A DNA stretch of 51,655 nt from Schlesneria paludicola DSM 18645 (GTDB lineage Bacteria > Planctomycetota > Planctomycetia > Planctomycetales > Planctomycetaceae). The number at the start of each line of letters is the position of its first letter. Positions within the stretch are counted from its first letter, which is position 1. Both the position numbers and the translations under genes were made by a program. The DNA is taken from NCBI GenBank assembly GCA_945862235.1, contig CAMAYU010000023.1:1-51655 (forward strand), read 5' to 3'. The notes under the pieces were generated by a model, which saw only the letters and a program-made list of their open reading frames with translations, was not told the origin of the DNA and did not search any database. Below, one piece after another: positions 6,078-10,266 of this stretch.

Positions 6078-6197
6078 CAAAAGTAGCCTTCCTCGCTCCG
6101 CGTGAAGTCAGCCGAGTCACCAGCAACCCGGATCGGCGGGAAACAGCGTCATTCGGTGTTCGGCTCTCTTCACGCGGAGCGAGGAAGGCTACTTTTG
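6078..6197. repeat. Long hairpin with perfect 30-bp arms
   Basis: Arms 6078-6107 and 6168-6197 are perfect 30-bp inverted copies (core GTAGCCTTCCTCGCTCCGCG). The 60-nt centre contains a further imperfect pairing around 6110 and 6160. It lies just after the TPR peptidase stop and before the kinase start, so it could act as terminator, processing site or mobile palindrome. There is no T-run. Confidence 0.85.
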
Positions 6198-6251: not shown

Positions 6252-8501
6252 ATGCGTGCTGCGAACACGGGTGTTTCGAGTGATCAGCGACCTCTGGAGG
6301 AGACGCTCGACCAAGGTGTCGAGTCGGTCGAACGTGCTCGGGAATTGAGCGCGTTGGCGGGCGAAGCCCCCGCATCGGTGCCGGGCTATCGCATTCTCAA
6401 GTCGATCGGCGAGGGGAAGTACGGATCGGTCTGGTTGGCTCGCGAGCAGAACACGGGCAAGCATGTCGCGATCAAGCTCTACACACATCGGCGCGGTGTC
6501 GATTGGTCGCTGCTGGGGCGCGAGGTCGAGAAGCTGGCCGTGCTGTACACCTCGCGCAACATCGTCGGGTTGCTGGCGGTCGGCTGGGATCACGACCCGC
6601 CGTATTACGTGATGGAGTACTTAGAGAACGGGTCGCTGGCCGCGCGATTGAACGGCAGTCCGCTCACTCCCCTCGACGCGGTGCGGATTGCGACGCGCGT
6701 CTGTCAGGCATTGGTTCATGCGCACGGCAGCGGCATCCTGCACTGCGATCTCAAGCCGGCAAATATTTTGCTTGACCAAGACTTCGAGCCGCGTTTGTGC
6801 GACTTCGGACAATCGCGACTCGCAGATGAGAACAGTCACGCGTTGGGGACGTTGTACTACATGGCTCCCGAGCAAGCGGACCTCAAGGCGGTCCCCGATG
6901 CGAAGTGGGACGTGTACGCGCTCGGGGCACTCGTCTATCACATGCTGACCGGCTCACCCCCGTTTCGCACGGATGAGAACGATCGCCGGTTGAGCGATGC
7001 GCGGTCGCTGGAGGAACGGTTGACGATCTATCGCCAAATCGTGCGGAATGAGGTGAGACCACAGGCGCATCGACGCGTCTCGGGCGTCGATCAGCATCTG
7101 GCGGAGATTGTCGATCGTTGCCTGGCATCCGACCCGGCGAAGCGATTCCCAAACGCCCAGGCGGTGCTGGACCGGCTGATCGCGCGGGAACGGTTTCGCG
7201 CACGCAGGCCGCTCGTGTTGCTCGGGCTGGTCCTGCCGGCGCTGCTCTTGTTGGGGACAGCGCCGCTGGCGATCGAGGCGATGAATGACGCGATCCGCAC
7301 GACGCAATCGAGTCTCACGCGGCGGGCACTCGAAAGCGACGTGCTCACCGTCAACCTGCTGGCGGAAGGAATCAATCGCGATCTGGGAGATCGGCAGGCG
7401 GAGTTGGAGGCGATCGCCGCTGATGAAGAACTCCAGCGGGCGATCATCAACTTTGCATCTCAGCCGCGCGAGGAACGACAGCCCCTGTGGGACTTGTTGA
7501 ATGACTTCAAGAAGCAGAACGACAAGCGATGGAAGGGACTCGGCCGGTCGCTCGATGACAGTTGGTTCCTGCTCGACGCGGGCGGCGTGCAGCGGTGGCG
7601 CAACGTCATCAGCATGTCGCTGGATGGAGGCTATGCGTATCGCGACTACTTCCACGGCGGCGGCTTTCACTACCCCGAGAACGAGGTGCCGGTCGGTGTC
7701 GCGCCGATCACAAAGCCGTACGTTTCGATTCCCTATCGTGGTACGACTCAGCAGCACGATTTGATCGCGCTCTCGGTCCCCATCTTCGCGCCGGATGATG
7801 AATCTCGCGTGATCGGCGTTCTGGCGAGATCGCTCTCGCTGAGCAGTCTGTTGCAGGACTACGAGCGCAGCCTGCGTTCACAGGGGAGCGATGGCGTCGG
7901 TCGTGAGTTCGCGATTCTTGACGGGCGCTCTGTCGATGGACGGCAGCGGCCGTGGACGTTGCTCGCGCACGAATGGATGACGAAGGGCAACCTCGATTCG
8001 CTTGGCTCATCCGGGTTCGAGAAGCTCAGTCTGGTCGGCGTTGCCAAACAGGATGTGCTGCTGGACCTCGAACACCTTTTGCAAGAGTCCGCCCCAGGGG
8101 ACTCCGCCGAGGAACGAACCACGCGGACTGAGCCGGATCGAACGCGGCATTACATCGATCCGATCGGCAAGCTCGACCCGGCGACCTACGGCGGCGAATG
8201 GCTTGCGGCGTTCAGTCGTGTGCGCGGCACCGATTGGGTCGCCGTCGTACAAGAACGAAAGAAGTCCGCGTTGCAGCCTGTGGAAGACCTGCAAGCGCGA
8301 CTCTTCTCGTCCGCGCTGGGAGCCGTCCTCGTCATGCTCGGCCTCGTCGCGGGATCGTGGTGGCTGATCGTGGCCTTGTTGAATGAACGCGGTCCGCGCT
8401 GGCTCCGCTTCTGGCGGCGACAGTCTCCGTCGGGCAACACGACGACGTTGTCGTTGACCGCGAAGGGGACCGACAACGTAAAGGGAGGCGACAGTGCTTG
8501 A
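6252..8501 (+). CDS. Transmembrane Ser/Thr protein kinase with extracytoplasmic Cache-like sensor
   Basis: A 749-residue receptor-type kinase. The cytoplasmic N-terminal kinase domain (about 44-310) has the glycine loop 'GEGKYGSVW' (53-61), lysine 75 in 'VAIK', catalytic Asp166 in 'HCDLKPAN', DFG at 184-186 and 'APEQA'. The usual HRD arginine is cysteine, making it a non-RD kinase. A membrane segment (about 320-343) leads to a roughly 340-residue outer region with 'YRDYFHGGG', 'YVSIPYRGTTQ' and 'VIGVLARSLSLSSLL', resembling a double-Cache ligand sensor; a second membrane segment lies at about 686-708. I chose ATG at 6252 because the longer frame runs back into the palindrome at 6168-6197. Its last 8 bases overlap the next gene, an FHA-domain cyclase, so the two are probably made together. 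The ligand is unknown. Confidence 0.9.
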   Translation: MRAANTGVSSDQRPLEETLDQGVESVERARELSALAGEAPASVPGYRILKSIGEGKYGSVWLAREQNTGKHVAIKLYTHRRGVDWSLLGREVEKLAVLYTSRNIVGLLAVGWDHDPPYYVMEYLENGSLAARLNGSPLTPLDAVRIATRVCQALVHAHGSGILHCDLKPANILLDQDFEPRLCDFGQSRLADENSHALGTLYYMAPEQADLKAVPDAKWDVYALGALVYHMLTGSPPFRTDENDRRLSDARSLEERLTIYRQIVRNEVRPQAHRRVSGVDQHLAEIVDRCLASDPAKRFPNAQAVLDRLIARERFRARRPLVLLGLVLPALLLLGTAPLAIEAMNDAIRTTQSSLTRRALESDVLTVNLLAEGINRDLGDRQAELEAIAADEELQRAIINFASQPREERQPLWDLLNDFKKQNDKRWKGLGRSLDDSWFLLDAGGVQRWRNVISMSLDGGYAYRDYFHGGGFHYPENEVPVGVAPITKPYVSIPYRGTTQQHDLIALSVPIFAPDDESRVIGVLARSLSLSSLLQDYERSLRSQGSDGVGREFAILDGRSVDGRQRPWTLLAHEWMTKGNLDSLGSSGFEKLSLVGVAKQDVLLDLEHLLQESAPGDSAEERTTRTEPDRTRHYIDPIGKLDPATYGGEWLAAFSRVRGTDWVAVVQERKKSALQPVEDLQARLFSSALGAVLVMLGLVAGSWWLIVALLNERGPRWLRFWRRQSPSGNTTTLSLTAKGTDNVKGGDSA
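8483..8488 (+). promoter_or_regulatory. Ribosome binding site GGGAGG for the cyclase GTG start
   Basis: GGGAGG sits five bases before GTG 8494, inside the 3' end of the kinase gene. It fixes the GTG as the cyclase start in preference to the ATG codons at 8506 and 8509. Confidence 0.75.
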
Positions 8502-10266
8502 ACTCATGATGCAGGGGGCCGAGCCGTCTCAGTCGCGGCGGCAGCTCTTGCGACCGGGCGAGAACCATGTCATCGGACGGGCGTCCGACGCGAGCCTCAG
8601 CATTCCGTGGGACAGCTTGCTCTCACGCCGCCATGTGCAGCTCGACGTGCAGCCCGGTCACGTGCAGCTCAAGCGTGTCGAGTCGGCTCGCAACCCGCTC
8701 TTCTTCGCGGGGGAATCGGTCGAGTCGTGTCGGGTGGAGATCGGGCAGCACTTTGTCGTGGGAGCGACCTCGTTCTATCTGTTGGAAGCGGAGGCGGACG
8801 GTTCCGTCGTAGCCGCGCCCGTCGAAGAGTTCGCCTTCAAGCCGCAAGAGCTGCGCAAGATCCGATACCAAGATCCCGAGAACCGTATCGAGGTGCTGAC
8901 GCATCTTCCCGAAGTCATCGCGGGAGCGGCGAATGATGGCGAGCTGTTTCATCGGCTGGTCAATTTGCTGCTCAAGGGGATCGTCCATGCGGAGGCGGTC
9001 GCGATCGTGACGGCGGGCGGGACCGAAGACATTCCCCTGCTGCATTGGGATCGACGGCGCGAGACTGCGGGACCGTTCCGCCCGTCGCGGCGGCTGGTCG
9101 TGGAGGCGCTCGAAAAGCGGCGGGCCAGCGTGCTGCACATCTGGGAGAAGAACTCCCCGAAGCAGCACGACCAAACACTGATGCAAGAGTTCGACTGGGC
9201 CTACTGCACGCCGGTGCCGGGCCTCGCCACCGAGCCGACCGGACTGTACGTGGCCGGTCGGATGGGCAAGACCTTCGTACCGGGCACGACGCTCTCCGAC
9301 ACGTTGCAACTCGAAGCCGATGTGAAGTTCACGGAACTCGTCGCGGAGATCATCAGCGCGGTCGTTCGCGCGCGCCGCTTCGAGCGGCAGAAGGCCGGAC
9401 TGCGGCAGTTCTTCGCGCCGCCAGTCCTCGCCGCTCTGGGAGATGAACTCGACACGACGCTGCTCGAACCGAGTGAGTGTGATGTGACGGTGATGTTCTG
9501 CGATCTGCGTGGCTTCAGTCAGCGGGCCGAGTCGGCGGCGGGCGACTTGATCGGACTGCTCGAACGAGTCAGCCGGGCACTCGGTGTGATGACGCATCAC
9601 ATTTTGGAACATGGCGGCGTCACGGGCGACTTTCAGGGAGACGCGACGCTCGGGTTCTGGGGCTGGCCATTTCCGTCACCCGATGCGGCCGTTCATGCGT
9701 GTCGCGCGGCACTCGGCATTCGCGCCGCGTTCGCGAAAGCGGCCGCCACGAAGAACCATCCGCTGGCTGACTTCGCGATGGGGATCGGCATCGCACATGG
9801 TCGCGCGGTGGCAGGCAAGATCGGCACGGCCGAACAAGTGAAAGTCACCGTGTTCGGCCCGGTCGTCAATCTGGCGAGTCGCCTCGAAAGCATGACCAAG
9901 CAACTCCGAGTGCCGATCGTCGTCGATGAAGCGACCGCCAAGATCGTGCGGCCGCGACTCGCCTCCAGCGAAGGCCGCCTGCGCCGCTTGGGTCGCCTGC
10001 TGCCCTACGGGATGGAAACGCCCGCCGTCGTCAGTGAGTTACTTCCGCCCGAAACGGAACTCCCCGAACTGACTGACGCGCACGTCGCCGAGTACGAATT
10101 GGGAGTCGATCACTTCACCGAGGGACGCTGGGATCAAGCCTATCGCTGTCTGCACGGGATGCCCGCCAGCGACCGCGCCCAAGACTTTTTGATGCAGCAC
10201 ATCGTCCTGCACAACCGCACCGCCCCCGCCAATTGGGACGGCACGATCCGCCTGCCTAACAAATAG
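8494..10266 (+). CDS. FHA-GAF-class III adenylate/guanylate cyclase
   Basis: A 590-residue protein with three regions. An FHA domain (about 5-100) keeps the phosphothreonine-binding pattern Gly28-Arg29, Ser44 and His47. A GAF-like region (about 130-300) follows. A class III nucleotidyl cyclase domain (about 325-500) has metal-binding Asp337 in 'FCDLRGFS' and Asp383 in 'GDFQGDATLGFWG', and the transition-state residues Asn459 and Arg463 in 'VNLASRLE'. Threonine in 'VTVFGP' fits class IIIb, usually adenylate cyclases. No membrane segment is seen. The GTG start overlaps the kinase gene by 8 bases. Inference: the FHA domain reads phosphothreonine written by the adjacent kinase and sets cyclic nucleotide output. 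The last 70 residues look like a short helical (TPR-like) tail. Confidence 0.92.
   Translation: MLELMMQGAEPSQSRRQLLRPGENHVIGRASDASLSIPWDSLLSRRHVQLDVQPGHVQLKRVESARNPLFFAGESVESCRVEIGQHFVVGATSFYLLEAEADGSVVAAPVEEFAFKPQELRKIRYQDPENRIEVLTHLPEVIAGAANDGELFHRLVNLLLKGIVHAEAVAIVTAGGTEDIPLLHWDRRRETAGPFRPSRRLVVEALEKRRASVLHIWEKNSPKQHDQTLMQEFDWAYCTPVPGLATEPTGLYVAGRMGKTFVPGTTLSDTLQLEADVKFTELVAEIISAVVRARRFERQKAGLRQFFAPPVLAALGDELDTTLLEPSECDVTVMFCDLRGFSQRAESAAGDLIGLLERVSRALGVMTHHILEHGGVTGDFQGDATLGFWGWPFPSPDAAVHACRAALGIRAAFAKAAATKNHPLADFAMGIGIAHGRAVAGKIGTAEQVKVTVFGPVVNLASRLESMTKQLRVPIVVDEATAKIVRPRLASSEGRLRRLGRLLPYGMETPAVVSELLPPETELPELTDAHVAEYELGVDHFTEGRWDQAYRCLHGMPASDRAQDFLMQHIVLHNRTAPANWDGTIRLPNK

Follow-up and report, generated by a model that had tools for sequence, protein, structure and literature searches.

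A receptor kinase and an FHA-bearing nucleotide cyclase with a changed base pocket form a conserved gene pair in planctomycetes

In a 51,655-nucleotide stretch of Schlesneria paludicola DSM 18645 (assembly GCA_945862235.1, contig CAMAYU010000023.1, positions 1-51,655, forward strand; hereafter the window, meaning this whole analysed stretch), two overlapping genes encode a transmembrane receptor kinase and a multidomain class III nucleotide cyclase. The genome (6.83 Mb, 377 contigs, 97% complete) contains 42 kinase-domain matches and one PF00211 cyclase match. Here we report, from computation, the gene pair itself, its domains, its conservation and co-retention across genomes, and residue changes in the cyclase pocket. 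The initial annotation of this DNA had read an 8-base overlap between the two genes, and the overlap is indeed there on the same strand. The features of the locus are as follows.

6252..8501, plus strand: transmembrane dCache receptor Ser/Thr kinase (749 amino acids, ATG start, stop 8501)
6303..6350, plus strand: N-terminal element Thr18-x14-Ser33, candidate FHA ligand, from conservation before the kinase domain
6387..7166, plus strand: kinase catalytic domain, PknB-like, non-RD, with a short activation loop (Pfam PF00069, 5.4e-49)
6741-6749, plus strand: HCD motif, residues 164-166, replacing HRD
7200..7283, plus strand: first transmembrane helix, residues about 317-344 (hydropathy; helix 302-389 in the predicted model)
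7284..8288, plus strand: extracytoplasmic dCache-type sensor region, residues about 345-679 (dCache_1 matches in the aligned kinases)
8289..8387, plus strand: second transmembrane helix, residues about 680-712 (hydropathy; helix 670-710 in the predicted model)
8483..8488, plus strand: GGGAGG ribosome-binding-like site of the cyclase gene, ending five bases before the GTG (read from the sequence)
8494..8501, plus strand: 8-base overlap of the kinase and cyclase genes (a gap of -8 is also seen in relatives)
8494..10266, plus strand: FHA-(GAF-like)-class III nucleotide cyclase (590 amino acids, GTG start, stop 10266)
8494..8787, plus strand: FHA domain, residues 1-98, with GR28-29, SRRH44-47 and N67 (residues, Pfam, profile search)
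8866..9267, plus strand: GAF-like alpha/beta region, residues about 125-258, then a long helix, 266-304 (topology of the predicted model only)
9466..10044, plus strand: class III cyclase catalytic domain, with metal Asp337/Asp383 and Asn459/Arg463 kept
9628..9630, plus strand: Asp379, where adenylyl cyclases have Lys (alignment)
9859..9861, plus strand: Pro456, where adenylyl cyclases have Asp/Thr (alignment)
10075..10263, plus strand: C-terminal helices and a conserved PxxWDG-like tail (alignment, predicted model)

The kinase has the layout of a receptor, and its description as a transmembrane Ser/Thr kinase with an outer Cache-like region was well founded. Next to the PF00069 domain, two hydrophobic segments frame the outer region. 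The window kinase scores below the Pfam cut-off for dCache_1 (23 of 45 bits); among aligned kinases the profile is found in 28/31 at E<=0.01 (best 4.7e-16), lying between two membrane helices as in dCache receptors. The ATP Lys, DFG and APE motifs are all in place. In the predicted model (mean predicted local distance difference test, pLDDT, of 83), the catalytic domain has a PknB-like kinase fold (VIA Z 28.8, root-mean-square deviation (rmsd) 2.2, 249 aligned), and a structure search with this model gave kinase domains only, among the matches listed.

The catalytic motif reads HCD for HRD, leaving no Arg before the catalytic Asp, which makes the kinase non-RD as first annotated. In fact, HCD is kept in every orthologue read: in 34/34 and 29/29 rows of two overlapping sets (3 truncated rows skipped) and in 16/16 further orthologues. 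When the 29 other kinases of the same genome were inspected, HCD was read in 0 and HGD in 1, the motif not being recognised in several. Judged by this conservation, HCD for HRD is a hallmark of this kinase family. The stretch from DFG to GT is 12 residues long in 62/63 rows (two overlapping sets), and 52 of the 63 have no Thr in it.

The cyclase begins with an FHA domain. Its score in the window protein lies just below the Pfam cut-off (19.9 of 20.7 bits), and Pfam finds the domain at E<=0.01 in 22/25 aligned cyclases. The GR, SxxH and N residues of phospho-Thr binding are all present, with G28, R29, H47 and N67 invariant in 25/25; the FHA domain and its key residues, as originally claimed, are thus well supported. 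Single exceptions occur among relatives (e.g. L117, which lacks the Asn). A profile search matched the solved FHA domains of Ki-67, Dun1, Rv1747, GarA and TB39.8 at E 2e-4 to 2e-3 (GarA at E 0.0024), and 3gqs, a 106-residue 'adenylate cyclase-like protein', matches the FHA part at 6e-7. With the model of the whole cyclase, cyclase domains dominate among the structural matches listed.

The catalytic domain matches the general cyclase profile at 1.7e-13 and has what defines class III: the fold with two metal-binding Asp, and the transition-state Asn and Arg. The metal Asp, Asn459 and Arg463 are kept in 30/30 first orthologues and 25/25 aligned cyclases. The initial annotation had credited the cyclase with all its key residues. 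This holds for the metal Asp, Asn and Arg; it does not hold for the two residues that specify the base, which are both changed. The Lys and Asp/Thr that choose adenine in adenylyl cyclases are replaced by Asp379 and Pro456, and the first of these positions does not carry the Glu of guanylyl cyclases either, having Asp instead. According to PMC4215837, adenylyl cyclases have Lys/Asp, and guanylyl cyclases have Glu with Cys, Ser, Thr, His, Ala or Gly.

This Asp/Pro combination is found in 30/30 first orthologues and in 78 of the 80 closest named relatives (77 with the metal-1 Asp, Asn and Arg, which were also scored). The two exceptions have Ser for Pro and Glu for Asp, the latter being the single Glu among the 80; a third row, Asp/Pro, was unmatched by the metal-1 pattern. 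These 80 head a list of at least 571 confirmed matches; the two peptide patterns that found them contain neither base position. Of 43 cyclases placed on a tree, those with Asp/Pro fall within one clade of 31 (support 100/100), which also contains one Gly/Pro row and one row in which catalytic residues are lost. Another 10 FHA-cyclases form a second clade and combine Asp with His, Asn, Ser, Ala, Thr, Glu or Asp, and two further cyclases have the usual Lys/Asp; the root of this tree is unsure because of long branches near it. In one relative of the cyclase, L203 (G058:C137), the metal Asp and the Asn are gone and the FHA residues remain; it is an apparent pseudocyclase.

Judged by its residues, the catalytic pocket is not of the standard adenylyl type. 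A pocket that pairs an acidic residue with a non-donor comes closer to the guanylyl pattern, that of Cya2 above all, Asp/Pro itself not being among the listed combinations, and GTP is our first guess for the substrate. In PMC11224242, Asp94 is among the residues of BcPycC that select uridine triphosphate, and it is a possible counterpart of Asp379. Could the domain be no catalyst at all, and instead sense nucleotides or act as a scaffold? The whole clade has both base-specifying residues replaced, and the G058 relative is without metal Asp and Asn too. A scaffold, however, would not need the metal Asp, Asn and Arg that all first orthologues and aligned cyclases keep, and we regard this explanation as very improbable.

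From the distribution of its two genes, the pair is a real, conserved planctomycete module. Among the 80 closest named loci it is adjacent in 37, apart in 38 and undecidable in 5. In adjacent loci the order is kinase then cyclase, with gaps of -8 to +342. On the tree, adjacency over the 75 informative loci requires 7 state changes, against 25.9 in shuffles. Coordinates or gene order place the two genes side by side in other families as well (G043 and G045; also G081, G087 and G141, the kinases of these three not read). Conserved adjacency in planctomycete genomes had been named beforehand as a check, and it was found over several families. Because they are conserved across genera, the features of the pair cannot be of chance origin.

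We then asked how often each gene occurs on its own. A comparison of 59 genomes (cyclase at E<=1e-85, sensor at E<=1e-5; hand tally) gave both in 38, cyclase only in 8, sensor only in 3 and neither in 10. The sensor-only genomes are G004, which is 89% complete and has an HCD kinase, and G042 and G055, with weak matches and kinases not read. A class sample of 118 genomes (cyclase at E<=1e-60, sensor at E<=1e-10; genomes without a match only partly listed) gave the cyclase in 70, the sensor in 46 and both in 44. Here, HRD kinases of another family account for both genomes with the sensor alone and for two of the 44 with both genes (G065 and G126); G100, G112, G065 and G126 were rejected as orthologues on this ground, and the G116 kinase was not read. 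In the window's family, 29/29 cyclase genomes among the rows listed have a kinase-sensor match, with the genes adjacent in 20 and not in 9 (hand tally), and G017 is without both genes. A mirror-tree correlation of r 0.93 over 26 genomes had no control protein and so is not counted as evidence.

Among the 15 genomes of the window's genus, the two genes lie side by side in the window and in 5 further genomes and are separated in 8; G004 has only the kinase. The separation was probably one event, because the six named Schlesneria-type non-adjacent rows form one clade in the cyclase tree and both genes show higher identity inside the adjacent and the non-adjacent group than across the two. The coupled arrangement had been thought to make equal production likely. 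Since both genes are kept yet non-adjacent in these 8 genomes and in the 9 of the family, equal production by coupling cannot be essential. One might go further and suppose that the two genes work independently, their overlap being compact gene packing only: the pair is apart in 38 of the 75 informative named loci, and both genes are retained when apart. This explanation is improbable in our judgement, given that the kinase-then-cyclase order extends over several families and that a phospho-Thr type FHA domain lies beside a kinase.

What could this FHA domain bind? The sequences upstream of the kinase domain diverge, except for one element, D-x-T-L-x-Q-D...R-x-L-S, in which Thr18 and Ser33 are invariant in 31/31 aligned kinases. 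The pattern T-x14-S, placed 20-34 residues before the domain, occurs in 76/76 orthologue rows (67 distinct, some rows being one genome from two collections), and these include 14 kinases from genomes that have kinase and cyclase apart or on different contigs. At the same distance it occurs in 0/29 other kinases of the genome and in 0/4 HRD kinases with a similar sensor; shuffled N-termini have T-x14-S in 10.8%. The pattern and its distance were picked after inspecting the sequences, and therefore the controls carry the weight. A first regular expression (T..Q) had missed 4/60 and matched 5/29 controls, and was replaced by T-x14-S. Residues 1-21 and 31-35 of the kinase model have pLDDT under 50, and the N-terminal stretch carrying the invariant Thr is probably flexible. 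Thr18 is also the better kept Thr, because the DFG-GT loop so often has none. The Thr18 element is in our view the best candidate phospho-Thr ligand for the cyclase FHA domain. Two other ligands were tried and rejected, one in the C-terminal tail of the kinase and one at the cyclase's own C-terminus ('WDGT'); in neither place is the Thr conserved.

To explain these results, we propose that the conserved receptor kinase and the cyclase act in one pathway through docking of the FHA domain on phospho-Thr18, the product being most likely cyclic GMP (cGMP), and we give this proposal about an even chance of being right. An outside ligand would bind the dCache domain, and the signal would be relayed by the first membrane helix to the non-RD kinase in the cytoplasm. 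The kinase would (auto)phosphorylate the invariant Thr18 just ahead of its own domain, and the FHA domain of the cyclase would grip the phosphorylated residue. Docking would draw the cyclase dimer to the membrane, or rearrange the stack of FHA domain, GAF-like region and helix, and the output of the cyclase would change. This output would be a cyclic mononucleotide from a non-adenylyl pocket (Asp379/Pro456), most likely cGMP. The ligand, the phosphorylation of Thr18, the docking, the direction of control and the substrate are all inferred here from domains and conservation. We favour this chain because a phospho-Thr type FHA domain sits beside a kinase whose one invariant Thr lies in a probably flexible stretch, and because this Thr is kept where the genes are apart as well. 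Kinase autophosphorylation followed by FHA docking had already been suggested; the idea is plausible, and it is now more specific because the phospho-Thr type FHA residues are kept and the kinase has an invariant Thr.

Several results weigh against this chain. In the kinase, a Ser is present in the activation loop in 54/63 rows. Counted anywhere in the last 70 residues, T-x14-S occurs in 5/29 control N-termini, and among the 4 HRD kinases one carries it at 16. In the cyclase, Asp/Pro as read from the alignment fits no characterised pocket exactly. Adenylyl cyclases (OaPAC) are matched better than Cya2, or at least equally well, both with the profile and by fold; overall similarity cannot tell the substrate, because adenylyl cyclases outscore Cya2 with the profile. 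Residues 125-258 look GAF-like by predicted topology, judged by eye, and have no sequence support: Pfam matched GAF in 0/25 and 0/15 cyclases, hhalign comparison with 8 GAF domains from this genome gave a probability of 0.65% (E 0.088), and a profile search of the PDB returned no GAF match. The GAF domain of the initial annotation is thus unsupported by sequence, and its suggested role as a second input is weak. Downstream, no classic cyclic AMP (cAMP) or cGMP receptor was found in the genome. Its one match to PF00027, the cyclic-nucleotide-binding (CNB) domain, lies on another contig (L184:1342-2049) beside a gene for a cysteine-rich, iron-sulfur-like protein, and by eye appears to be without the usual pocket Arg. 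PF00233 phosphodiesterase had no match in the genome, but neither did it in the control genomes, and this negative carries no weight. Co-occurrence in the family is weak evidence, because both genes are near-universal there. Finally, 8/46 cyclase-bearing genomes are without a kinase-sensor match: same-clade FHA-cyclases occur in genomes where this kinase was not found, and there the FHA domains must bind something else.

These last genomes fit another explanation, in which the Thr/Ser element acts on its own kinase, through dimerisation or autoinhibition, or attracts FHA proteins other than this cyclase. The FHA domain of the cyclase would then answer to other kinases or to several, and the shared operon would be a legacy of history, with no more than loose cross-talk between the two. 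The 42 kinase-domain matches of the genome and the repeated changes of adjacency fit this explanation as well. However, sensor-positive genomes without the cyclase offer it little: in the class sample, the two of them carry HRD kinases of another family, and in the 59-genome set they are the incomplete G004 and two weak, unread matches. The maintenance of adjacency over several families also speaks against loose cross-talk. We consider this explanation possible, if rather doubtful, and keep docking on phospho-Thr18 as our working proposal.

The pair may also have had a third member. A receiver-domain gene (PF00072 in the G015 member) lies 265-862 bases after the cyclase in 13 named loci, all of them kinase-adjacent. 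It is present in 12/32 adjacent loci that extend 1200 bases or more downstream, versus 0/33 apart loci; G036, a non-adjacent pair, also has a receiver gene after the cyclase. On another contig, the window genome encodes a receiver-domain protein, L233 (G000:C153:13735-14265), with 52% identity (next best 30%), likely the orthologue of the receiver gene that follows the pair. Kinase-cyclase-receiver may be the older arrangement, because the receiver gene follows adjacent loci and the window genome keeps a likely orthologue elsewhere. The 'self-contained' module of the initial annotation is made doubtful both by these 13 loci and by the same-clade FHA-cyclases found where the kinase sensor was not.

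Other genes and repeats surround the pair and its separated relatives. In the 8 non-adjacent genomes of the genus (L042:7920-10568), the kinase is followed by a gene for a protein of ~190 amino acids, with no Pfam match in the one tested, and then by a SNF2 helicase gene. In four genus genomes with the kinase elsewhere, the gene directly after the cyclase (L037:8396-9901, and in L038, L039 and L041) looks by eye like a retron-type reverse transcriptase (YADD). Upstream of the window kinase, positions 6082-6193 hold an inverted repeat with 22-base half-sites about 90 bases apart. The half-site has 132 copies genome-wide at <=2 mismatches (reversed-pattern control, 0), and the whole looks like a dispersed palindromic repeat element. 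A longer open reading frame would start the kinase at GTG 6102; it was rejected because the extension has no coding-like guanine-cytosine pattern and contains a genome-wide repeat. No sigma-70 promoters or intrinsic terminators were found around the pair, a search that is uninformative in this phylum.

For signalling in bacteria by cGMP, or by other cyclic mononucleotides than cAMP, the known cases are few. The conserved planctomycete clade of cyclases, with its altered base pocket, offers an easy target for biochemistry, and an invariant Thr together with an FHA domain narrows the vague idea of a kinase near a cyclase to one peptide-binding question. In the literature on FHA cyclases or cyclic GMP in planctomycetes, among part of the matches to open-licence papers, no title deals with such a pair.

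How does the pair compare with known systems? The best single-sequence match in the PDB is Cya2 of Synechocystis (2w01; phmmer E 6.2e-14), whose fold is similar (VIA Z 18.8, rmsd 2.4, 187 aligned) and which also has an acidic residue at the Lys position. Unlike Cya2, the window cyclase has Asp for Glu, Pro at the second position, and FHA and GAF-like regions in front. PMC4284465 states that, when it appeared, Cya2 alone had been confirmed as a bacterial guanylyl cyclase. Sensor-linked cyclases (the 6fht phytochrome construct, OaPAC) share the layout of sensor, long helix and cyclase; the window cyclase adds an FHA domain, has another base pocket and has a GAF-like region undetectable by sequence, and 6fht fits the whole model poorly (TM-score 0.31). 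The PycC profile matches the window cyclase at 4.9e-16, about as strongly as the general cyclase profile. As for a Pycsar system, no CNB effector (PycTM or PycTIR) adjoins the pair in the window, where a TPR/peptidase gene and a gene of the enolase family lie next to it.

Kinases and cyclases have been joined in other ways. The TOMM kinase/cyclase family (TIGR03903) and Myxococcus Pkn2 have a Ser/Thr kinase and a class III cyclase in one polypeptide, whereas here there are two genes; an excerpt of PMC1262709 gives this one-chain form for Pkn2, and FHA with kinase in cyanobacteria. The two window proteins fall outside TIGR03903, with 56.1 and 17.1 bits for a cut-off of 705.75. PknB and GarA of mycobacteria, which we take to be a receptor kinase with an FHA partner, resemble our pair in the PknB-like kinase domain and the GarA FHA profile match, and differ from it in that here we find a dCache sensor, HCD, a short activation loop and an FHA domain fused to a cyclase. 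In animal receptor guanylyl cyclases, an outer sensor, a membrane helix, a kinase-homology domain and a cyclase all form one chain. The logic is similar, with the difference that the planctomycete kinase has its catalytic motifs and the cyclase is separate. As a tentative idea that we think more apt to fail than to hold, we envision that the pocket of the Asp/Pro clade is unlike those of known adenylyl and guanylyl cyclases, and that the paired form is a phospho-Thr-gated cyclase on a non-RD dCache kinase: a two-protein bacterial analogue of the receptor guanylyl cyclases, whose product, perhaps cGMP or a cyclic pyrimidine nucleotide, would serve as a second messenger of general use.

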